The notes beneath the pieces were generated by a model. It was not told where the DNA came from, made no database searches, and saw only the letters and a list, made by a program, of their open reading frames with translations. A stretch of DNA of 64,000 nucleotides from a virus, in IMG/VR virus record IMGVR_UViG_3300021197_001743, positions 56,039 to 120,038 of that record. The stretch is one strand, 5' to 3'. Positions 2,118 to 50,919 of this stretch are shown piece by piece. The translations under genes were made by a program, and so were the position numbers. How positions within the stretch are numbered: the first letter of the stretch is position 1; every line of letters begins with the position of its first letter.

Positions 2118-4498
2118 TGGCAGAATTTGGATGGGCATATGTTGCTGGAGCGCTGGCGGGTGGAGTCTCTGGCTCTGTTCAGACAGCTACTCCGAGAATG
2201 GCACTAACGGGTAGTGATCGTTTAGTATTTGATCATAACACTGATGTGTTAAATCTTTCCGGATCGTTGTACGTCTCTGGTAGTATCACTGCAAACCAAT
2301 ATAACGTTAATGTTATTAATGAAACAGTCACAAACTTAAGTGCCTCAGGTAATACGAGATTTGGAGACACTACTGACGACAGCCATATCTTTACTGGGAG
2401 CCTGTCGATTTCATCCTCAGCTAATCCAATTCAACTCTATGGCTTACAAACGCTTCCTGCATCAAGCTCCGCTCACTTCCTCGCTCTTGATTCCAGCAAC
2501 AATGTTGTTATAACGTCTTCTTTGCCTATTGATGATTATTCGAATGCTGGAGACAACAGGATCATAACAAGTAAACACTCCACCGGTATACAGGGAGAAA
2601 ACAATTTAACATTCAATGGAACAACTTTAAACCTCGCAGGTCACCTCACAGCAAGTGGAATGGTGTCGTCGTCGTTTGGGTATTTTGATGAAATTACTGG
2701 AAGTCGTGGGAGATTCTATTCATTGTCTGTTGGGACAGCGTCAGTTAATATAACCGGCCAAGGCATCACCGGAGCTCAGCTTATTACATCTGACTTCTTG
2801 GCTGGAACTCTCAACACTAGCATTCAAAACAACATTACATCTGTCGGTCCATTAAGTCAATTAACGGTGGCCGGCAATGCTTCTTTTGATACCGATACCT
2901 TATACATTGATTCAGAGGTCAACAGAATCGGCATAGGGACACAAATCCCGACAACGCCCTTAGAAGTCTTCAACAGCAACACACAATTAAGACTAACTAA
3001 TTCGAAATATGTCTTCGGCATCTCGGAGGCGAAACATACAGATCTCTTAACTAACAACCAAGGAGACCTAGTTATAACACCGTCAAGTGGTAAATTAGGC
3101 ATAGGAACCGCTTCACCGACTGCTAACCTAGATGTAATAGGGGATGCGAGAATAACAGGTGATTTGACCATCTCTGGGACACTTAAAGCACAAACAACAG
3201 ATTTTGTTGTCTCAGCTGATACAATGACTCTCGGCGATGAGATAACAGATACCGTCATAATTAATGCCGGAACAATCACGGCAACCAACGGGCTCAACTT
3301 TAATTCAGGTAAATTTGTTCTTGGCTCTGACGGCAACGTTGGAATAGGAACGAGCAATGCTGGTAGCCCTTTAGAGGTTAACTCTGGGCTTGCTCAAATA
3401 GCAATTGCAGACAATCCGGCAAACGCTGTTAAGTTTAAGGCCGAGGAAAGCGGAGATTTCCGCATACTTGTTGCTGGAGATGATACGACATTAGAGTCTC
3501 ACTTGACTATCTCCGGCAATTTAAATGCCGGGCTGGACAGCAATAGTGTTTCAAACATTAGTGGGACATTAAATGTTCTTACTAGGATTACTACTCCAGT
3601 GCTATCCGCTGATACTCTTACAGATGGACATGGGAGCCTATCTTCTGGTTCAATAAGTGGGTTCGATACAATCTCCGCAACCAGCATCATAGGAACCCTC
3701 ACAACACCATCACAAGGCAATATAACTTCTTTGGGCACCCTTACTACTTTAAATGTCTCCGGAGACCTTGACGTTGATTCTGGCACCCTTCACGTTGACT
3801 CTGGCGCCGACCGAGTTGGTATTCGAAAAACAAATCCCCAAAGAACGCTCGAGGTTAAAGATACCGAGAAGCAATTACGCTTAACATATTCTGATTATGT
3901 ATTCGGAATATCAGCTGACGTCAACACTGACATAGGAGTGAACTCAAGCGGATACTTGTCCATAGTACCATCCGGAGCGAGAGTTGGGATTGCAACAGAT
4001 AATCCAACTAAAACTCTGGAGGTCAATGGAGACGGACAGTTCAATGGAGATGTACATGTAAGCGGTACTCTATTTGCTGAACAAGTAAAAGTAACCCTAA
4101 CAGAGGTACAAGTAGTTCACCTCTCTTCAACCGGATCTACATCATTTGGTGATACCTCGGACGATATCCACACGTTTAAAGGTACAGTTGTGTATACCGG
4201 AGGGGTAGTTTATAATAGAAAGTCAATCTCGAGCAACTACTCCATGACCTCTGAGGACTATCTAATAGGAATTAGAGCAAATCAAAACACCACAATTACA
4301 TTGCCATCGGCTTCATCTCTACTAGAGGGGCAATCATTTATAATCAAGGACGAACTAGGAACAGCCTTAGAACAGTCTTTAATAGTACAAGCTTCTCCCG
4401 GCGATACTATTGATGGTCTCGCTAGTATTACTATTCCTAGCCCGCACACATCTTTTAATTTATATACCGACGGATCGGGCGCTTTCTTCATTTTATAA
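2117..4498 (+). CDS. tail fibre-like protein
   Basis: 793 residues, rich in Ser, Thr, Gly, Asn and Asp. It is built of loosely repeated beta units: several copies of a VGIGTxxPxxxLEV-type element (near residues 270, 330, 410 and 620) and of xLxVSGxL/xLTISGxL elements, a pattern frequent in long trimeric phage fibres and adhesins. The N-terminus (MAEFGWAYVAGALAGG) is hydrophobic and could be the attachment end. The last 100 residues (ITLPSAS...VQASPGDTIDG...) resemble the C-terminal domain seen in several phage fibres that ends a triple beta-helix. No chaperone or enzymatic motif is visible. It likely acts in adsorption. Overlap with the upstream gene suggests a co-translated surface-protein set. 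Confidence 0.7.
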   Translation: MAEFGWAYVAGALAGGVSGSVQTATPRMALTGSDRLVFDHNTDVLNLSGSLYVSGSITANQYNVNVINETVTNLSASGNTRFGDTTDDSHIFTGSLSISSSANPIQLYGLQTLPASSSAHFLALDSSNNVVITSSLPIDDYSNAGDNRIITSKHSTGIQGENNLTFNGTTLNLAGHLTASGMVSSSFGYFDEITGSRGRFYSLSVGTASVNITGQGITGAQLITSDFLAGTLNTSIQNNITSVGPLSQLTVAGNASFDTDTLYIDSEVNRIGIGTQIPTTPLEVFNSNTQLRLTNSKYVFGISEAKHTDLLTNNQGDLVITPSSGKLGIGTASPTANLDVIGDARITGDLTISGTLKAQTTDFVVSADTMTLGDEITDTVIINAGTITATNGLNFNSGKFVLGSDGNVGIGTSNAGSPLEVNSGLAQIAIADNPANAVKFKAEESGDFRILVAGDDTTLESHLTISGNLNAGLDSNSVSNISGTLNVLTRITTPVLSADTLTDGHGSLSSGSISGFDTISATSIIGTLTTPSQGNITSLGTLTTLNVSGDLDVDSGTLHVDSGADRVGIRKTNPQRTLEVKDTEKQLRLTYSDYVFGISADVNTDIGVNSSGYLSIVPSGARVGIATDNPTKTLEVNGDGQFNGDVHVSGTLFAEQVKVTLTEVQVVHLSSTGSTSFGDTSDDIHTFKGTVVYTGGVVYNRKSISSNYSMTSEDYLIGIRANQNTTITLPSASSLLEGQSFIIKDELGTALEQSLIVQASPGDTIDGLASITIPSPHTSFNLYTDGSGAFFIL

Positions 4499-33067: not shown

Positions 33068-33101
33068 AATTTAAATACCGCAGGGAGGCACGGGTTTACA
33101 G

Positions 33102-33998
33102 GTGCCTCACGTTATAGAACCGAGTGAGCAACAAATGAAGAACATAGTTGAAATATATAGCAAGTTTTGCAGAGACAAAGGAATAAAGTATCAGTTGGAC
33201 GATACTGTTTGTCCGTATGATAACACAACTCTCTTTTGCCCAGCAGGCATGCAACAGTTTAAAAAGAAGTTCAACTCGGAAGAAACGGGAACAGTCGCAA
33301 ATGTTCAATCTTGTATTAGAATGAACGACTTGGAAGAAATTGGTGATGGTACTCATTATCTTTATTTTGATATGATTGGGCTGTTCTCGTTTCGCTCTAT
33401 GTCCGTCCAGCAAGCAGTTGACTTCTGGATGGAATTCCTTGAAGATATTCTAGAGATAAAAGTCGACTACATAACAATACACCCAGACAAGCTCGAAGAG
33501 TGGAAAAGTCTTTATGATAACTACGATGTGGAGATCAGAGAAGATGAAGAGTGTAAATGGACAGACGGACAGATCGGAGGATACTGCACTGAGTTCTATA
33601 AGGATGACGTGGAGATTGGAAACATTGTCAATCCATTGGGCAATTGTATCGATGTTGGCTTCGGCTTACAAAGACTAAATATGTTTGTGAATGGAAGAAA
33701 CGAAGAGACCAAAGAAGAAATACTTGTTCTAACTTGTGAAAAGCTTTTATACTCTGGCTACTATCCAAGCAACAAGGAACAAGGGTATGTGTTCAGGAAA
33801 CTGTTGAGAGAGCTTTATAGAATTCAATCAACTTGGGATAACGAACACTATCAGAAAGAGAAAGAGCGCCAAGACAAAGTAATTAAGCGCTATAACAAAG
33901 ACAAAAATAAGGCCAAATATCAGGGTAAATCAAAAGAGTGGTGGTTCGACACCATGGGAGTTGATATTGACTTTATCGAGAGTATAGAAAATAAATAA
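33102..33998 (+). CDS. free-standing alanyl-tRNA synthetase-like catalytic domain
   Basis: 298 residues beginning at GTG (GGGAGG lies about 12 bases upstream). The order of landmarks is that of AlaRS: an N-terminal IVEIYSKFCRDKGIKY helix; LFCPAGMQQFK (44-54; AlaRS has LFTNAGMNQFK); motif 2 VQSCIRMNDLEEIG (68-81) with R73; HYLYFDMIGLFSF (85-97; compare HHTFFEMLGNFSFG); DGQIGGYCTEFY (155-166; compare GPCGPCSEIYYD); and motif 3 DVGFGLQRL (184-192) with R191. So the class II aminoacyl-adenylate site appears intact. It lacks most of the tRNA-recognition region, the editing domain and C-Ala (full AlaRS is about 875). The last 80 residues are basic and helical. It could make Ala-AMP, charge an RNA, or modify another molecule. 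Confidence 0.85.
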   Translation: MPHVIEPSEQQMKNIVEIYSKFCRDKGIKYQLDDTVCPYDNTTLFCPAGMQQFKKKFNSEETGTVANVQSCIRMNDLEEIGDGTHYLYFDMIGLFSFRSMSVQQAVDFWMEFLEDILEIKVDYITIHPDKLEEWKSLYDNYDVEIREDEECKWTDGQIGGYCTEFYKDDVEIGNIVNPLGNCIDVGFGLQRLNMFVNGRNEETKEEILVLTCEKLLYSGYYPSNKEQGYVFRKLLRELYRIQSTWDNEHYQKEKERQDKVIKRYNKDKNKAKYQGKSKEWWFDTMGVDIDFIESIENK

Positions 33999-38036: not shown

Positions 38037-39395
38037 ATGACTATTAATAACGACCACGAAACTTTTTTACGCTTTGGAAAAAAATTCCAAGAAAATATGT
38101 GCCAACTTATGTTGGAAGATAGACCATTCTTTGACCAAATATCGGAGGTATTAAGAGTTGAATTTTTTGAACTCAAATACCTGCAGATTTTTGCAGATAC
38201 ATTAATAAAATACAGATCTAAATACAATACACACCCAAATCATGAAGTCATGATGGCAATACTCAGGACTGAGTTGAACCACTGCGACGATGCTGCAGCA
38301 ACACAAGTAAGAAATTACTTTGCAAGGATCATGAAATCAGAAGGTGTAGAAGAGTCAGAATATGTTAAGGATAAATCTTTAGATTTCTGTCGCAAGCAGG
38401 TTCTTAAGGGAGCAATGATGAAATCAATAAAACTTATCAAGTCTTCATCATTCGATGAGATTGAAAAGGTGATTCAGGAAGCTTTAAAATTAGGAACAGA
38501 TAACAACTTTGGGCACAATTATCACATAGACGCTCTTAAACGCTTTGAATTGATTAATCGTGCTCCAATTTCTACCGGTTGGGATCGAATGGACGAGATT
38601 GTTAAGGGTGGATTAGGTAAAAGTGAATTGGGCGTTGTTATCGCTCCAACAGGAGCCGGTAAATCTATGGTCCTTGTACACCTTGCAGCGCAAGCCCTTA
38701 AACAAGGCAAGACCGTAGTATATTACACTTTGGAATTAAAAGATACTGTGGTTGGTGGAAGATTTGACTCTTGTCTAAGTGGAATACCATTAAACGAACT
38801 CAGAGATCGCAAAGAAGAGGTTCTGGACCACATTGAGACGGTTGATGGTACACTTATTATTAAAGAGTATCCAACCAAATCAGCTTCTGTTCAAACAATA
38901 AAAAATCATATCGAGAAATTAAAGAAAAGAGGAATATATCCGGATATGGTGTTGTGTGATTACGCTGACCTCCTTCGTCCTTCGCGAAGTTCAAGCGAGA
39001 AGCGACATGAATTAGAGGAGACATATGAAGGTCTCCGAGCATTAGCTCAAATATATGAAATACCAGTGTGGACAGCTTCACAAACTAACAGAAGTGGACT
39101 GAATGCCGAGGTAATTACAATGGAAGCCATATCAGAGGCTTTTAACAAATGTTTCGTTGCGGATTTCATCTTCTCGCTGTCCCGAACAGTTCAGGATAAA
39201 GCAGCTAATAAAGGAAGATTATTCGTAGCTAAAAATAGAAATGGCCCAGACGGTTTAGTGTTCCCTACTTTTGTCGATTGGTCTGATGTTACAATCAAAG
39301 TGTTAAATAGGGAAGATAATGATATCGAGATGCCTTCTGCAAAGGATGCTCTCGAAACTCTTAGAAGAAAATATAATGAATTGAATGCGAAATAA
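38037..39395 (+). CDS. replicative DNA helicase (DnaB/gp41-like)
   Basis: 452 residues, near T4 gp41 (475). An N-terminal helical domain (residues 1-165) precedes a RecA-type motor: GVVIAPTGAGKSMVL (Walker A, about 201-215), TVVYYTLELKDT, MVLCDYADLL (Walker B, about 303-312), and the IPVWTASQTNRSG block (about 341-353). As a hexamer it would unwind ahead of the fork. No primase domain is fused and none is seen nearby. Start: ATG with ggagga. It has its own promoter 30 bases upstream and is followed, 10 bases on, by the ribonucleotide reductase. Confidence 0.9.
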   Translation: MTINNDHETFLRFGKKFQENMCQLMLEDRPFFDQISEVLRVEFFELKYLQIFADTLIKYRSKYNTHPNHEVMMAILRTELNHCDDAAATQVRNYFARIMKSEGVEESEYVKDKSLDFCRKQVLKGAMMKSIKLIKSSSFDEIEKVIQEALKLGTDNNFGHNYHIDALKRFELINRAPISTGWDRMDEIVKGGLGKSELGVVIAPTGAGKSMVLVHLAAQALKQGKTVVYYTLELKDTVVGGRFDSCLSGIPLNELRDRKEEVLDHIETVDGTLIIKEYPTKSASVQTIKNHIEKLKKRGIYPDMVLCDYADLLRPSRSSSEKRHELEETYEGLRALAQIYEIPVWTASQTNRSGLNAEVITMEAISEAFNKCFVADFIFSLSRTVQDKAANKGRLFVAKNRNGPDGLVFPTFVDWSDVTIKVLNREDNDIEMPSAKDALETLRRKYNELNAK

Positions 39396-39405
39396 GGGAA
39401 ATATT

Positions 39406-41262
39406 ATGAATTTAGAAAATAAAATTTTATCAGATGTAACAGTATACATGAAGTATGCTAGGTATTTAGAAGATCAAAATCGACGCGAGAACTGGGAAGA
39501 GTTGGTTTCTCGGAACATGGATATGCATATAAAAAAATTCCCATCTTTAGATAGGGAAATAAGAAGCGCGTATCAATATGTCTTCCAGAAGAAAGTTCTT
39601 CCTTCCATGAGAAGCATGCAGTTTGGAGGTAAACCAATTGAAGTATCTCCAAATAGAATTTTCAATTGTGCATATGCGCCTGTTGATAATTATCATGTGT
39701 TTTCTGAGATTATGTTTCTCCTCCTAGGAGGAACTGGTGTCGGATTTTCCGTCCAACACCACCATGTAGACAAGCTACCAGAAATAAGAAAGCCTTCAGC
39801 AAGAAGTCGAAGATTTCTTATTGGAGACTCAATTGAGGGTTGGGCAGACTCTATTAAGGCTCTAGTGGCTTCGTATTTTAAAGGCACTTCTCGACTACGT
39901 TTTGACTTCTCGGATATCCGTCCGAAAGGATCCAGACTAGTTACCTCCGGAGGTAAAGCTCCCGGACCTCAGCCCTTGAAAGAATGCTTAGTAAAAATTG
40001 AAGGAATATTAGATGAAAAAGAAGACGGCTCCCAACTTACTCCCATTGAAGTTCATGACATCGTCTGTTATATTGCGGACGCGGTTTTGGCTGGGGGTAT
40101 TCGTAGGGCTGCGCTCATATCTTTGTTCTCTGCTGATGACGAAGAGATGCTCGCTGCCAAAACAGGCGACTGGTGGGAACTTAACCCGCAAAGAGGAAGG
40201 GCAAACAATTCTGTTGTTCTTATGCGTCATCGCATCGATCGTGATACTTTTATGGGTATCTGGCAGCGTGTTCGCGAGTCAGGAGCAGGGGAACCCGGGT
40301 TTTACTTCTCCAACGACAAAGATTGGGGAACCAATCCCTGCTGTGAAATAGGCTTGAGGCCATATCAATTTTGCAATCTTGTTGAAGTCAATGTGAGCGA
40401 CATAAGCAATCAGGAAGAATTAGAAGAAAGAGTGGCCGCTGCAACGTTCATAGGTACCCTTCAAGCGTCTTACACGGACTTCCACTACCTAAGACCTATC
40501 TGGCAAAGAAACACTGAAAAGGATGCCCTTATTGGCGTTTCTATGACTGGTATTGCATCTGGTGGAGTACTTGGTTTGGATTTAACTACTGCTTCGTTGG
40601 TTGTTAAGAGAGAAAATAGAAGAATAGCAATGCAAATTGGAATCAAACCAGCAGCAAGAACAACCTGTGTAAAACCAGCAGGAACAACATCCTTGACCCT
40701 CGGAACATCTTCCGGAATTCATGCGTGGCATAACGACCATTATGTACGCAGAATTCGCGTAGGAAAGAACGAGGCGATCTATTCTTATCTTAAAGAAAAC
40801 ATCCCAGAGCTTATTGAAGATGATAAATTCCGACCGCACGATACGGCACTTATTAAAGTCCCACAAAAAGCTCCACAAGGGGCCATAACACGCCACGAGA
40901 GCGCTTTGGATCTCTTAAGAAGGGTAAAGGGTATTAGTGATACTTGGATCAAAGGAGGGCACCAAAGCGGGAACAACACGCACAATGTGTCTGCTACCAT
41001 CACTGTCAAGCCAAACGAATGGAAATCAGTTGGCGAGTGGATGTGGTTAAATCGCAAGTGCTACAATGGATTGTCTGTGTTGCCCCATTCAGAACACACA
41101 TATGTCCAAGCTCCTTTTACCGATTGCACGAAAGAAGAGTACGAATCTTTATTACAATCGGTAAAAAGAATAGATTTGGACCTAATTATAGAAGATCAAG
41201 ATGAAACAAATTTGTCCGGAGAAATAGCGTGTGCCGGTGGATCATCCTGTGAAATATTTTAG
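39406..41262 (+). CDS. adenosylcobalamin-dependent ribonucleoside-triphosphate reductase (class II, monomeric)
   Basis: 618 residues from ATG 39406 (aaggga just upstream; an ATG at 39385 lies inside the helicase gene). FNCAYAPVDN (with the first active-site Cys), GGTGVGFSVQ, NPCCEIGLRPYQFCNLVEVN (thiyl-radical Cys and Glu of the NxCxE type, in part) and KPAGTTSLTLGTSSGIH are the catalytic landmarks. The C-terminal CAGGSSCEIF supplies the redox Cys pair for thioredoxin. The single-chain pattern without a second subunit fits the Lactobacillus-type RTPR. It makes dNTPs without oxygen, needing host B12. ThyX (42575) and dUTPase (62845) complete a dTTP-oriented nucleotide set. Confidence 0.9.
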   Translation: MNLENKILSDVTVYMKYARYLEDQNRRENWEELVSRNMDMHIKKFPSLDREIRSAYQYVFQKKVLPSMRSMQFGGKPIEVSPNRIFNCAYAPVDNYHVFSEIMFLLLGGTGVGFSVQHHHVDKLPEIRKPSARSRRFLIGDSIEGWADSIKALVASYFKGTSRLRFDFSDIRPKGSRLVTSGGKAPGPQPLKECLVKIEGILDEKEDGSQLTPIEVHDIVCYIADAVLAGGIRRAALISLFSADDEEMLAAKTGDWWELNPQRGRANNSVVLMRHRIDRDTFMGIWQRVRESGAGEPGFYFSNDKDWGTNPCCEIGLRPYQFCNLVEVNVSDISNQEELEERVAAATFIGTLQASYTDFHYLRPIWQRNTEKDALIGVSMTGIASGGVLGLDLTTASLVVKRENRRIAMQIGIKPAARTTCVKPAGTTSLTLGTSSGIHAWHNDHYVRRIRVGKNEAIYSYLKENIPELIEDDKFRPHDTALIKVPQKAPQGAITRHESALDLLRRVKGISDTWIKGGHQSGNNTHNVSATITVKPNEWKSVGEWMWLNRKCYNGLSVLPHSEHTYVQAPFTDCTKEEYESLLQSVKRIDLDLIIEDQDETNLSGEIACAGGSSCEIF

Positions 41263-41815: not shown

Positions 41816-42578
41816 AGAATTATTAAAAAATATGATAAAAAAGGTTATATTAGAGAACAGACAGAAGCCTGTTTTACTTGAAGAGCCATTGAGAGAAATG
41901 GCAACGTTTGCATCAGCAAAACATAAAATAAATGAATTGATGGTACCATTTTTAGCAGTATCAGCGTTTAGATCTGAGAGAAGCTATAGAAAAAATATGG
42001 AAATGGACAGAAAAATCAGAGAAGAAATATTGAAGCCTAGTGGTTATTCTTACACAATTGTGGAAGGTGGATTCCTTGAGAAGCCTCGTGATGATCAAGG
42101 TGTCGAGATAGAAGATTCAGAAGGTACCGAGGTCAATGAAAAGACTTATTTAGTTTTTGATAAAGAAACTAGACCCGGCGGCAAGTTGAGCATGGGCTTG
42201 TTTGAATTGGGAAAAAAGATAGCAAAAGCGTCAAATCAACATAGCTTTTCCTATGGATACCCTAGAACAATTCAAGACCCTAACCAAGAAGAGCCTACAC
42301 GAGAGATGTTTATTGCCATTTATGAACCTGACGCTCAAGCCCCCGGCGATGCTCATAGAGTTAAGGAGCCATGGGCAGGGCCTTGGTCTTCATACGAAGA
42401 GATGGAACACGACGACATATATTATACCAAAGTTAGAGGTTCCAGAGGTAAATTCGCAGAACAAAAAATACAAGAAGCATTGGACATTAATCCAAAGAGC
42501 GTCTTTGAGGCCATGAAAAAAGAGCACCAAATTAAGTATTGGAAGAGCTTAAAAGAACGCTATAATAGAGGTGAATGA
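41808..42578 (+). CDS. DUF3293-like protein with VILEN N-terminal signature
   Basis: 256 residues. The leader LLKNMIKKVILENRQK belongs to the group seen at 35339, 36102 and 53952. Residues about 50-100 (PFLAVSAFRSERSYRKNMEMDR, then LKPSGYSYTIVEGGFLEK, in pieces) resemble DUF3293 proteins, where an ISAxxP segment, an N-rich helix and a GG-x-E loop occur in this order. HSFSYGYP follows. Function of that family is unknown. Overlaps both neighbours (8 and 4 bases). Confidence 0.55.
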   Translation: MNKELLKNMIKKVILENRQKPVLLEEPLREMATFASAKHKINELMVPFLAVSAFRSERSYRKNMEMDRKIREEILKPSGYSYTIVEGGFLEKPRDDQGVEIEDSEGTEVNEKTYLVFDKETRPGGKLSMGLFELGKKIAKASNQHSFSYGYPRTIQDPNQEEPTREMFIAIYEPDAQAPGDAHRVKEPWAGPWSSYEEMEHDDIYYTKVRGSRGKFAEQKIQEALDINPKSVFEAMKKEHQIKYWKSLKERYNRGE

Positions 42579-43291
42579 TGCCATATCAGAAAACGATTGA
42601 TTTATATTCTGATGGCATAGGAAAGGTTCAATATATAGACCACATGGGCACTGACCTCACGATTGTGAACAGTGCTCGTGTTTCATTTGGAGTTCAGAAG
42701 GAGGAACTAGATGATAGAGATAAAAAACTTGTTAATTACCTTGTTAAACACCGACACACGTCTACGTTCGAGCACAATGTGGTTACCTTTAAGTTTGTCG
42801 TTCCTCTTTTTGTGCGCTCTCAGCATATGCGGCACAGAACTTGGTCTTATAACGAGATTTCCAGAAGATATACAGATAAAGATCTTGCTTTTTATTGCCC
42901 AGATACATTCCGTACACAGCATAAGTCCAACAGGCAGTCTTCTAATCAAGACCAGATAGATCCTATTCTTTATCCGGACTTGTCTGACCCTAGTTTTGGA
43001 TTGTCCTGTGCGGATTATCTAAAACAACACACTAGAGCGTCGAAAGAATTGTTCGAACAATTGATGAGTGCGGGAGTTTGTAGAGAGCAAGCACGAATGG
43101 TTCTGCCGCAAAACATGTACACTGAATATTATGGAACAGTCAATTTAAATAATTTACTTAAGTTCATAGGCCTAAGGACCCATGATGGTGCCCAACAGGA
43201 GATACAAGATGTAGCCTTAGGGTGCCTAGAGATAGCAACAAACTTATGGCCGACAGCCATAGCAGCTTATAGGACGCATAAAAGTGTTTGA
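42575..43291 (+). CDS. thyX: flavin-dependent thymidylate synthase
   Basis: 238 residues. The ThyX motif R-H-R-T-W-S-Y-N-E-I-S-R-R-Y is complete (about residues 87-100), preceded by HTSTFEHNVVTFKFVVPLFVRSQHM (in part), where the conserved HxSxxEH is found. MVLPQNMYTEYYGTVNLNNLLKFIGLR (about 172-198, in part) supplies the substrate-binding Arg region. It converts dUMP to dTMP using FAD, NADPH and methylene-tetrahydrofolate. Starts within the previous stop (ATGATG); the next gene starts inside its end. Confidence 0.95.
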   Translation: MMPYQKTIDLYSDGIGKVQYIDHMGTDLTIVNSARVSFGVQKEELDDRDKKLVNYLVKHRHTSTFEHNVVTFKFVVPLFVRSQHMRHRTWSYNEISRRYTDKDLAFYCPDTFRTQHKSNRQSSNQDQIDPILYPDLSDPSFGLSCADYLKQHTRASKELFEQLMSAGVCREQARMVLPQNMYTEYYGTVNLNNLLKFIGLRTHDGAQQEIQDVALGCLEIATNLWPTAIAAYRTHKSV

Positions 43292-45838: not shown

Positions 45839-46267
45839 ATGGCAAGAATTTTATTCATTGATGATAACCCAGATCAGTTTCGTATGATACTAGATACGTT
45901 AGAATTTATAATTGATGATCTGGATATTGAGTATTCAAATAGCGTAAGTGATGCAATAAAGAAAATGTGCGAAAAAGAATATGATGTGGTTATTATGGAT
46001 ATTTTTTTACCGCTCGGAACAAACTCTCAATCTATTGTCGGACCAAAAAATAAATTATATAAAGACTTAGATGCCTCGCACCTAGGAGGCTTAGAAGTAT
46101 TAGACTTCCTTGAGAAGATGCAAGATCACCCTAAAGTGTTAATGCATACAGCTAGTCTAGACAGCATGCTGATCGAAATGTTCAGCGATATATCAGAGTA
46201 TCGAATCCCTAAACCCTGCCCACCAGAGGTTTTTATAAGTAAAGTATCCGAGGCTTTATGTAAATAA
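45839..46267 (+). CDS. stand-alone response-regulator receiver domain
   Basis: 142 residues with all receiver landmarks: acidic pair D8-D9 (ILFIDDN), phospho-acceptor D54 (VVIMDIFLP), the Thr in LMHTAS and the Lys in RIPKPCPP. No output domain is attached, and no kinase is seen in the window. An insertion of about 20 residues after D54 (LGTNSQSIVGPKNKLYKD) is unusual. It may intercept phosphoryl flow from a host histidine kinase; this is inference. No clear ribosome site; the 44-base gap upstream holds a small TCGAT/ATCGA repeat. Confidence 0.8.
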   Translation: MARILFIDDNPDQFRMILDTLEFIIDDLDIEYSNSVSDAIKKMCEKEYDVVIMDIFLPLGTNSQSIVGPKNKLYKDLDASHLGGLEVLDFLEKMQDHPKVLMHTASLDSMLIEMFSDISEYRIPKPCPPEVFISKVSEALCK

Positions 46268-46286
46268 AGACTAATTATATACGTAT

Positions 46287-46362
46287 GGGGGTATAGCTCA
46301 GTTGGGAGAGCGTCTGCCTTGCACGCAGAAGGTCGTGAGTTCGATCCTCGCTACCTCCACCA
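46287..46362 (+). tRNA. tRNA-Ala (anticodon UGC)
   Basis: 76 bases with encoded CCA. The acceptor stem GGGGGTA/TACCTCC contains the G3-U70 pair that identifies alanine tRNAs to AlaRS. Anticodon loop ctTGCac gives UGC. The T-arm (GTGAG-TTCGATC-CTCGC) and D-arm fold normally. Confidence 0.95.
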
Positions 46363-46529: not shown

Positions 46530-47051
46530 ATGAGAATAGATCACATTGCATATCGTGTAGCAGACAGAAATAAAACAGCACAATTCTTCATTGATGCCTT
46601 CAATTATCGGATAGCTGATGAATTCGAAATTCAATTTGACGATGGAAGTTGCGCTCAATGCTATGCCCTTTCTCCACCAGAAAGACTAGATGGTACTTCT
46701 TTTAAAGCTTGGACAATGTTTGGAGAATCTGAATATCATTCCCCACCAGAAATCTTTGTTTCTCAAGGCTCAGCTGGATCCATTGTTGATAAGTGGGTAA
46801 AAGAGCGCAATTCCGTTGGAGGAGTTCACCATATAGCATATCAAGTTGATGATGTTGAAGAGACTATGAAAGATTGGAAAGACAAAGGTTGGGCAGAATT
46901 CACAACAGACCAACCCATCGTGGCTGACGGGCTATCCCAGTGCTTTACAAAGCCTCACATGTTAACTGGAGTAGTTTACGAATTTATATTCAGAACCAAA
47001 AAAGGTTTTAATGTAGACAGTGTACGAGATTTGATGGTGAGCACTAATTAG
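46530..47051 (+). CDS. VOC-superfamily metalloenzyme (glyoxalase/dioxygenase-like)
   Basis: 173 residues with two betaalphabetabetabeta repeats: RIDHIAYRVADRNKTAQFF (3-21) and VHHIAYQVDDVEETMKDW (about 98-115). Likely metal ligands are His4, His99/100 and Glu in YEFIFR (about 150). This arrangement resembles methylmalonyl-CoA epimerase and the 4-hydroxyphenylpyruvate dioxygenase family; substrate unknown. It follows the tRNA genes, with an aaggag site. Confidence 0.75.
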   Translation: MRIDHIAYRVADRNKTAQFFIDAFNYRIADEFEIQFDDGSCAQCYALSPPERLDGTSFKAWTMFGESEYHSPPEIFVSQGSAGSIVDKWVKERNSVGGVHHIAYQVDDVEETMKDWKDKGWAEFTTDQPIVADGLSQCFTKPHMLTGVVYEFIFRTKKGFNVDSVRDLMVSTN

Positions 47052-49017: not shown

Positions 49018-49022
49018 AAAAC

Positions 49023-49051
49023 TTGACAAACTATCTTGAGCATGTTATATT
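49023..49051 (+). promoter_or_regulatory. sigma70-type promoter, tmRNA
   Basis: TTGACA (49023-49028), 17 bp, TATATT (49046-49051) in the tgTTATATTATAAT context, 13 bases before the mature tmRNA 5' end. Confidence 0.9.
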
Positions 49052-49064
49052 ATAATTATAATAA

Positions 49065-49396
49065 GGGCTCGCAATGGCTTCGACGGGTTAGAATCAAGGG
49101 GAGAGTGCATGCAGGCGTGAATCAGCCTTAATCGTTCAAATTTTTATAAACGCAAACAATAATTTGTTTTTCGACGAAGTCGCTTTAGCGGCTTAATCGG
49201 GTGGTCGCCTCGAACCATCTATCCAAGAGAGGCAAAACAACAGGACAGTTGTAAAAATCACATCTCCTTCGGCCACGGACTATGGAGAATAAAACGCAGT
49301 GGATACCTCGCTAGGAGGGAAATAACTAGACAAGCATGTGAATGACTCAAACTAAGACTAGCGCGGACAGGGGTTCGATTCCCCTCGAGTCCACCA
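49065..49396 (+). ncRNA. ssrA: transfer-messenger RNA (tmRNA)
   Basis: 332 bases. The 5' end GGGCTCGCAATGGCTTCGAC and 3' end CGAGTCCACCA pair to form the tRNA-like acceptor, with G3-U70 as required for alanine charging and an encoded CCA. The T-arm is CAGGGGTTCGATTCCCCTC-like (in part). The reading frame resumes at GCA 49152 and ends at TAA 49194, giving the tag ANNNLFFDEVALAA, whose ALAA end is the usual protease signal. One-piece architecture. It rescues stalled ribosomes and tags their products. The downstream small gene begins 15 bases after the 3' end. Confidence 0.97.
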
Positions 49397-49739: not shown

Positions 49740-50620
49740 GATATCTATTACCTTTTCTTCTGTCCTGTACAGAAGTGTCTATCAACAAAATACCAAATGA
49801 GCCAAGCGACTCCGCGGTTGTAATTGTAGACACCACAGAACCATCGTCAGAGCCAGCCGTAGAGCCCTCTGTAGAGCCTATGGAAGGCATCGGAGGGTAT
49901 GTACACTACTATCTTCAACAAGTGGCGTGTCCGGCTTGTATGGGCGAAGCAAATGAGATAACTGTTGAGATGAATGCTAGATTTCATGAGCCAATTAATG
50001 ATTCATATACATCTTGGATTGTCCCGCAGGGCCAATGCACACAAAATTTAACTCAAACAGTTCCCTCTGTGCCGTTAATGGACAAAGGATCGGAAATTAA
50101 AACAAGAGCAGACGGGAATATCTTATTTGCATACAGAACATCGCAGAATAGCTATTACAACTCTTGGAATACAGACATATATTATACTCGTGATGCTGTA
50201 CACTACATATCCGAGGAGAACAATTACGAATTTGCTTCTTTTACATCGCTCCATGGGTTTGATTCAATCGAACCTTATGAATTACGATATGTGGACCCAG
50301 CTTATGCCTTCTCAGCCAAGATTTACAGATCGGGTCCTACCTTTTGGTGGTCTCCCAACGGCTCAAATAGCATGTTCACGATAACACTGGCAGTATACAC
50401 ACCAGATGGCTCTTCTTTACTGGGTTATGTTGCTTGCTCAAGCGGAGACACAGGGATGATGACTATCCCGGGACAATATCTAGAAACTTATCCTTATTGG
50501 TCACTAGTTGCAGTACACATGACAAGACACAAGATTGAATTGGTTCCTTGGGTAGAACAGAACACTTATATCGAGACACACATGGAGTGGTCAGTTATCG
50601 GCACAGGTCATATAGAATGA
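49736..50620 (+). CDS. short-signal lipoprotein
   Basis: 294 residues. MRYLLPFLLSC: an unusually short signal ending in a LLSC lipobox, so lipidated Cys11. Then a Ser/Glu/Pro/Thr-rich linker (TTEPSSEPAVEPSVEP) and a beta-rich domain (residues 60-294) with several Cys, including CPAC. The short signal plus Glu/Pro linker is a style I associate with Myxococcota-type surface proteins. Made by a phage, it could decorate the host outer membrane. Coupled to the membrane-protein pair upstream and clpS downstream by ATGA overlaps. Confidence 0.65.
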   Translation: MRYLLPFLLSCTEVSINKIPNEPSDSAVVIVDTTEPSSEPAVEPSVEPMEGIGGYVHYYLQQVACPACMGEANEITVEMNARFHEPINDSYTSWIVPQGQCTQNLTQTVPSVPLMDKGSEIKTRADGNILFAYRTSQNSYYNSWNTDIYYTRDAVHYISEENNYEFASFTSLHGFDSIEPYELRYVDPAYAFSAKIYRSGPTFWWSPNGSNSMFTITLAVYTPDGSSLLGYVACSSGDTGMMTIPGQYLETYPYWSLVAVHMTRHKIELVPWVEQNTYIETHMEWSVIGTGHIE

Positions 50621-50919
50621 CCAAGAAACAAAAAGACATATTAATCAAGGACCGGCAGAAGATCGATCGACCTAAAAAATACAAGGTTGTTTTCTACAAT
50701 GACGACTTTACTCCGATGGATTTTGTCACTTTGCTTTTGATGAACGTATTTAATAAAGGAAAGCAAGAAGCGCAAAGTATAATGATGCAGGTTCACAAGC
50801 AAGGAAAGGGGATAGCAGGTGTCTACTCAAAACAAATCGCTGAAACTAAAATCGAAACAGCAAAAATGTATGCAATCGATGCCGGCCACCCTCTGCATGC
50901 AGAAGCCGAACCAGAATAA
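50617..50919 (+). CDS. clpS: ClpS adaptor protein
   Basis: 100 residues. KYKVVFYNDDFTPMDFV (21-37) and MQVHKQGKGIAGVYSKQIAETK (57-78) are the ClpS core. Key residues N28, D29, D30 and H60 keep the exact 32-residue spacing of E. coli N34-H66, so the N-degron pocket looks intact. It ends in HPLHAEAEPE, like the EHPL of ClpS. In bacteria ClpS hands N-degron proteins to ClpA and lowers ClpA turnover of SsrA-tagged ones. A phage copy could redirect host ClpAP. ATG overlaps the lipoprotein stop. Confidence 0.9.
   Translation: MTKKQKDILIKDRQKIDRPKKYKVVFYNDDFTPMDFVTLLLMNVFNKGKQEAQSIMMQVHKQGKGIAGVYSKQIAETKIETAKMYAIDAGHPLHAEAEPE

Follow-up and report, generated by a model that had tools for sequence, protein, structure and literature searches.

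A 287-residue alanyl-tRNA synthetase-like protein of a marine phage and the wrong-frame leaders of its relatives

Can a phage protein that has about a third of the length of an alanyl-tRNA synthetase (AlaRS) still be a synthetase, and what would it charge? The question is raised by an open reading frame at positions 33102-33998 (plus strand) of the stretch of marine phage DNA analysed here (the window), which covers 64 kb at the right-hand end of a virus record of 120 kb. The preliminary description, made from the letters alone, gave the product as 298 residues counted from GTG 33102. This open frame is real, and every motif quoted in the description is present in it, but a shorter product is likelier. 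Since the start codons of the relatives correspond to ATG 33135, the gene probably extends from 33135 to 33998 and encodes 287 residues, while GTG 33102 is a possible start. A perfect 7-bp inverted repeat (GAGGCAC...GTGCCTC, 33085-33108) lies upstream of the gene and overlaps GTG 33102 and a Shine-Dalgarno-like GGGAGG. This repeat could mask the start or terminate an upstream transcript. As a conserved regulator the hairpin was rejected, because none was seen upstream of the relatives.

It was found that the window protein matches the Pfam family PF01411 (tRNA-synt_2c, 6.5e-21), the NCBIfam model alaS (TIGR00344, 7.6e-21), and AlaRS chains in the PDB (5e-14). The homology to AlaRS proposed at the outset is thus far above chance. 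All 26 aligned relatives also match alaS. The window protein scores 74 bits against this equivalog model and does not reach the curated cut-off of 457 bits, as is expected for about a third of the AlaRS length. An AlphaFold2 model made with the 26 relatives in the alignment has a pLDDT of 91.8 and a pTM of 0.85. Its 27 best PDB fold matches are all AlaRSs, 9jc7 being the top one (E 2.4e-17), and the predicted catalytic fold is of the AlaRS type, as the motifs had suggested. The alignment with the E. coli AlaRS catalytic fragment 3hxu (TM-score 0.78 by query length, 413 columns) spans the catalytic and recognition domains. The fold also resembles giant-virus AlaRSs of 464 and 513 residues.

The class II catalytic region comprises residues ~1-185 (33135..33689, plus strand), with the motif 2 arginine R62, Trp142, Asn163, and Asp173...Arg180 of motif 3. 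The preliminary description placed the motif 2 arginine correctly, as R73 in the count from GTG. The motif 2 and motif 3 arginines (R62 and R180) and the Trp, Asn, and Asp of the alanine pocket (W142, N163, and D173) are invariant in all 26 relatives. Together with the profiles and the fold, the conservation of these residues (26/26) backs the view that the adenylation site is intact.

It had also been claimed that almost nothing of the tRNA-recognition, editing, and C-Ala regions is left and that the protein is a catalytic core only. For the editing domain and C-Ala, profile searches gave no match and the window protein stops at residue 287, and by length their absence stands. The acceptor-stem domain, in contrast, is retained in a compact form (33690..33995, plus strand), and the "core only" label must be given up. 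Residues ~190-287, including PSNKEQGYVFRKLLR and WWFDTMG, align and are predicted to fold as a compressed tRNA-recognition domain. When the family profile was compared with AlaRS structures, three stretches matched, namely the catalytic region, motif 3, and the PSN...GYVLR part of the tRNA-recognition domain. In an alignment with the full-length Salmonella AlaRS, the C-terminal WWFDTMG falls on YDTYG, the site of E. coli D400. In E. coli AlaRS, N303 and D400 are the residues reading the G3:U70 base pair (PMC10036535). Their equivalents N213 and D272 are both kept in the window clade. In the family as a whole, the N303 equivalent is present in 17/26 and the D400 equivalent in 21/26 sequences, with variation in the other branches. 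Judging from the alignments and the model, the protein is a whole aminoacylation unit (catalytic plus acceptor-stem domains) that has shrunk from some 440-460 residues to 287.

Is this form as rare as the preliminary description supposed? A first scan of IMG/VR gave 19 relatives at about 78-83% identity, and relatives were found on more than 60 viral contigs and in many rhizobial genomes. The rarity of this phage-encoded form was therefore overstated. In a tree with six full-length AlaRSs, the miniature sequences form a single clade (support 100/100), to which the marine phages of the window clade, large phages carrying tRNA arrays, and plasmid or chromosomal copies of rhizobia belong. The rhizobial copies are named "alanine--tRNA ligase-related protein" in RefSeq. 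Since seven of the eight tested bacterial genomes with the miniature gene also have a full-length AlaRS, the bacterial miniature gene is a second, accessory copy. At two annotated rhizobial plasmid loci it lies among RES-Xre toxin-antitoxin and ABC transporter genes, and these neighbours were judged accidental and rejected as a clue to function. In three rhizobial genomes (L094, L095, and L098) the frame is broken, which suggests that the gene is dispensable there. As for a link with anti-phage defence, PADLOC gave no match.

The relatives, rather than the window itself, hold the more surprising result. At 43 bacterial loci and 10 phage loci, and later in five more phage lineages, a short ORF that is out of frame with the miniature gene stands before it as a leader; the window's own clade has none. 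The leader peptides are MSSRDA, MTSRDA, MSPRDA, MKRLDAF, MSQLNAI, MTPLNAM, VDAI, and the like, each ending at a stop codon. The apparent start of the leader usually stands behind a strong Shine-Dalgarno sequence; in one rhizobial copy (L079) the leader ATG is replaced by ACG. The AlaRS frame is always -1 relative to the leader. All leaders share a core, G_GAC_GCN or A_AAC_GCN (X_XAC_GCN), in which the Asp or Asn codon always follows a base identical to its own first base, and an alanine codon (GCC, GCA, or GCT) invariably stands 3' of the slip site. Upstream of the core, the AlaRS frame has no ATG, GTG, or TTG in 14 of the 43 bacterial loci and in 10/10 of the first phage loci. For the pRL9 copy, which has no usable in-frame start, the RefSeq start is placed at an ATC codon.

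The later scans served as a hold-out test of the pattern found in the first 43 + 10 loci. Leaders of the same form were found in the later-found L206/L207, L222, L264, L214, and L218, and the remaining new loci have an in-frame ATG. On the tree, no fewer than five changes are needed to explain the leader trait, and the branch nearest to the window clade (L031) has the leader. In a post hoc comparison of loci at <80% identity, tRNAs were found no more than 3 kb away from 10/13 leader-type phage genes versus 2/12 plain ones (Fisher p 0.005). In the family of Rhizobium johnstonii 3841, the strict leader pattern was found in 2/200 genomes (reversed control, 0), and the gene is therefore accessory in that family. 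A huge-phage copy at 3001-3816 of a 608-kb viral contig (L222) has a leader nearly identical to the Inquilinus/rhizobial form, which suggests that genes have passed between large phages and Alphaproteobacteria.

Because the leader is in the wrong frame and many copies have no normal in-frame start, the sequences imply that a programmed -1 frameshift at X_XAC_GCN makes the enzyme in the leader-bearing relatives, where it would be readable only via a -1 shift at G_GAC_GCN or A_AAC_GCN. Since the A-site codon is always an alanine codon, scarcity of Ala-tRNA would make the ribosome pause there, which would favour the slip and yield more enzyme. Two known processes would fit. The P-site tRNA may slip while the hungry alanine codon waits, or tRNA-Ser3 may decode GCN in a -1 mode. 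In E. coli, tRNA-Ser3 gives -1 shifting at the alanine codon GCA (PMC6920855). Both processes would increase when Ala-tRNA is scarce, so that a feedback loop, in which the gene is possibly autoregulated by the Ala-tRNA supply, can be envisaged. The usual slip site is Z_ZZN, which G_GAC matches poorly (PMC5009743). Near the shift site, a conserved stimulatory RNA structure could not be seen in rhizobia, which show no hairpin there; hairpins lie just downstream of the site in L020 and L047 and are weak against shuffles.

An alternative for the leader alone is that translation terminates and re-initiates at a non-AUG codon (CTG, TTG, TTA, or ATT) by the leader stop. Re-initiation close to a stop codon is common in bacteria, and in rhizobia a CTG in the AlaRS frame does lie across the leader stop (gcCTGAtc), its counterpart in L049 being TTG. 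For the rhizobial form this mode of initiation is possible. In L044, L046, and L264, however, the AlaRS frame continues after the core with the codon AAT, and L047 has its leader stop 27 nt beyond the core without any start codon in between. What all leaders have in common is X_XAC_GCN rather than any start codon. Re-initiation is thus a rather unlikely account of the leaders. Frameshifting at the core may mean that, in phages and rhizobia, the ribosome senses the scarcity of Ala-tRNA and thereby switches on the miniature AlaRS, the window clade having replaced the shift by ordinary initiation. This would be the first natural hungry-codon frameshift circuit, and I put it forward tentatively, as a serious possibility rather than a probable one. 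According to a 2016 review, there is no known example of hungry-codon shifting that yields a starvation-specific trans-frame protein (PMC5009743).

What would the window protein charge? The RNA genes of the window are a tRNA-Ala(TGC) gene (46287..46362, plus strand; G3:U70, A73, and an encoded CCA), a tRNA-Asp gene, and a one-piece tmRNA gene (49065..49396, plus strand; G3:U70, A73, and the tag ANNNLFFDEVALAA). The tRNA-Ala gene is 12 kb away from the synthetase gene. With a tRNA-Ala and a tmRNA that both have G3:U70 in the same genome, the phage holds natural candidate substrates. Among the phages with the gene that were examined, G3:U70 is present in 18/22 tRNA-Ala calls and 1/235 other tRNAs; three of the four tRNA-Ala calls without it are AGC genes with a long variable arm, possibly misnamed. 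As G3:U70 is general among tRNA-Ala species, its presence in the window and in the relatives is a requirement met and no proof of function. The position of the gene in tRNA arrays is stronger evidence than these counts. Phage LR745206 (635 kb) has the gene within a tRNA array, with a tRNA-Ala gene ~370 bp downstream, and in L206 three tRNA-Ala genes stand directly upstream of the miniature gene.

An obligate pairing of the enzyme with a phage tRNA-Ala was considered and rejected. Several gene-bearing records gave no tRNA-Ala, although many are fragments. Since several long records also lack it, host tRNA-Ala would have to be a substrate too, provided that the enzyme does charge tRNA. An obligate pairing with tmRNA was rejected as well, because a confident tmRNA was found in only four records, the window included, and it is not a fixed module. 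By eye, a promoter of the TTGACA-N17-TATAAT type is apparently common to the tmRNA of the window (49020-49064) and the miniature AlaRS genes of close relatives (upstream regions of L002, L004, and L007-L017). A homologue of the ClpS adaptor (50548-50919, plus strand; PF02617, 8.6e-30) is encoded 1.2 kb downstream of the tmRNA. Clp proteases are fed by both tmRNA and ClpS.

As a whole, the sequences are probably best explained by a complete miniature AlaRS, with -1-frameshift feedback in much of the family outside the window clade. The enzyme would make Ala-AMP from alanine and ATP, dock on the acceptor stem only of RNAs with G3:U70, and transfer alanine to the 3' end of the phage tmRNA and of tRNA-Ala from phage and host. 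It would thereby sustain the decoding of alanine codons and rescue by tmRNA during infection when charging by the host is insufficient.

Some class II synthetase paralogues activate amino acids for non-tRNA targets, and the preliminary description had left room for a peptide or a small molecule as the target. It may thus be asked whether the protein is an amino-acid activator that no longer charges tRNA and loads a carrier protein, a peptide, or a small molecule. The missing editing and C-Ala domains would fit such a role, as would the N303 and D400 equivalents that are not universal across the family and the setting of the rhizobial copies at the two annotated plasmid loci. On the other hand, the recognition domain is kept in a predicted AlaRS-like fold, the window clade keeps the residues reading G3:U70, several phage copies lie within tRNA arrays with tRNA-Ala, and carrier or biosynthetic genes were not recognised around the window copy. 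With these residues, a tRNA-Ala and a tmRNA of its own, and relatives beside tRNA-Ala in arrays, a peptide or small-molecule target is unnecessary, and an activator of this kind is unlikely. Still less probable is that the protein acts on host translation as a decoy or inhibitor, binding tRNA-Ala or Ala-AMP with no productive charging: translation modulators do occur in phages and the catalysis is deduced from conserved residues, but a decoy would not need catalytic and substrate residues that are invariant across 26 diverse sequences.

How does a charging enzyme of this size compare with known systems? The nearest is TuAlaRS of Tupanvirus (461 residues), which charges tRNA-Ala and an Ala microhelix via G3:U70 (PMC10036535). 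Both proteins are viral and have the catalytic and tRNA-recognition domains while lacking the editing domain and C-Ala. They differ in length (461 versus 287 residues) and in source (a giant virus versus phages and bacteria), and many relatives of the window protein have a putative frameshift leader. TuAlaRS is without the N and D residues, whereas the window copy has both. By sequence, the window protein is best regarded as a new, smaller variant of the viral miniature AlaRS known from Tupanvirus. I know of no natural AlaRS smaller than 287 residues, TuAlaRS having 461. With bacterial AlaRSs (TIGR00344; 3hxu, 9jc7) the family shares the class II motifs, the alanine pocket, and the PSN...GY...R and YDT..G elements of the acceptor-stem domain, but it is without editing and C-Ala domains, its recognition domain is about half as large, and it forms a separate clade (100/100). 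Huge phages (PMC7162821) likewise carry translation genes of their own, tRNA arrays, and tmRNAs, and one of them, LR745206, carries a relative; the main text of that paper does not mention alanyl-tRNA synthetase. A literature search for phage miniature AlaRSs or frameshift-regulated AlaRSs gave nothing besides TuAlaRS, and the compact family is undescribed there.

The leaders resemble that of prfB, which encodes release factor 2, in that a leader and a frameshift are combined and the efficiency of the shift would be tied to the factor supplied through the gene itself (PMC5009743). The prfB shift is +1, whereas that of the relatives would be -1, at an alanine codon. The proposed feedback loop would follow a logic like that of the release factor 2 frameshift. 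Through these leaders, the long-discussed regulation of genes by starvation-induced frameshifting would become directly testable. A 287-residue AlaRS, if true, would show how little suffices for reading G3:U70 and charging alanine, and the phage tRNA-Ala and tmRNA would thereby be tied to a charging enzyme of the phage.

Other phage-borne genes of the window encode a B12-type ribonucleotide reductase (39385-41262), a thymidylate synthase (42575-43291), a protein with a response-regulator receiver domain (45839-46267), and a glyoxalase-family protein (46530-47051).
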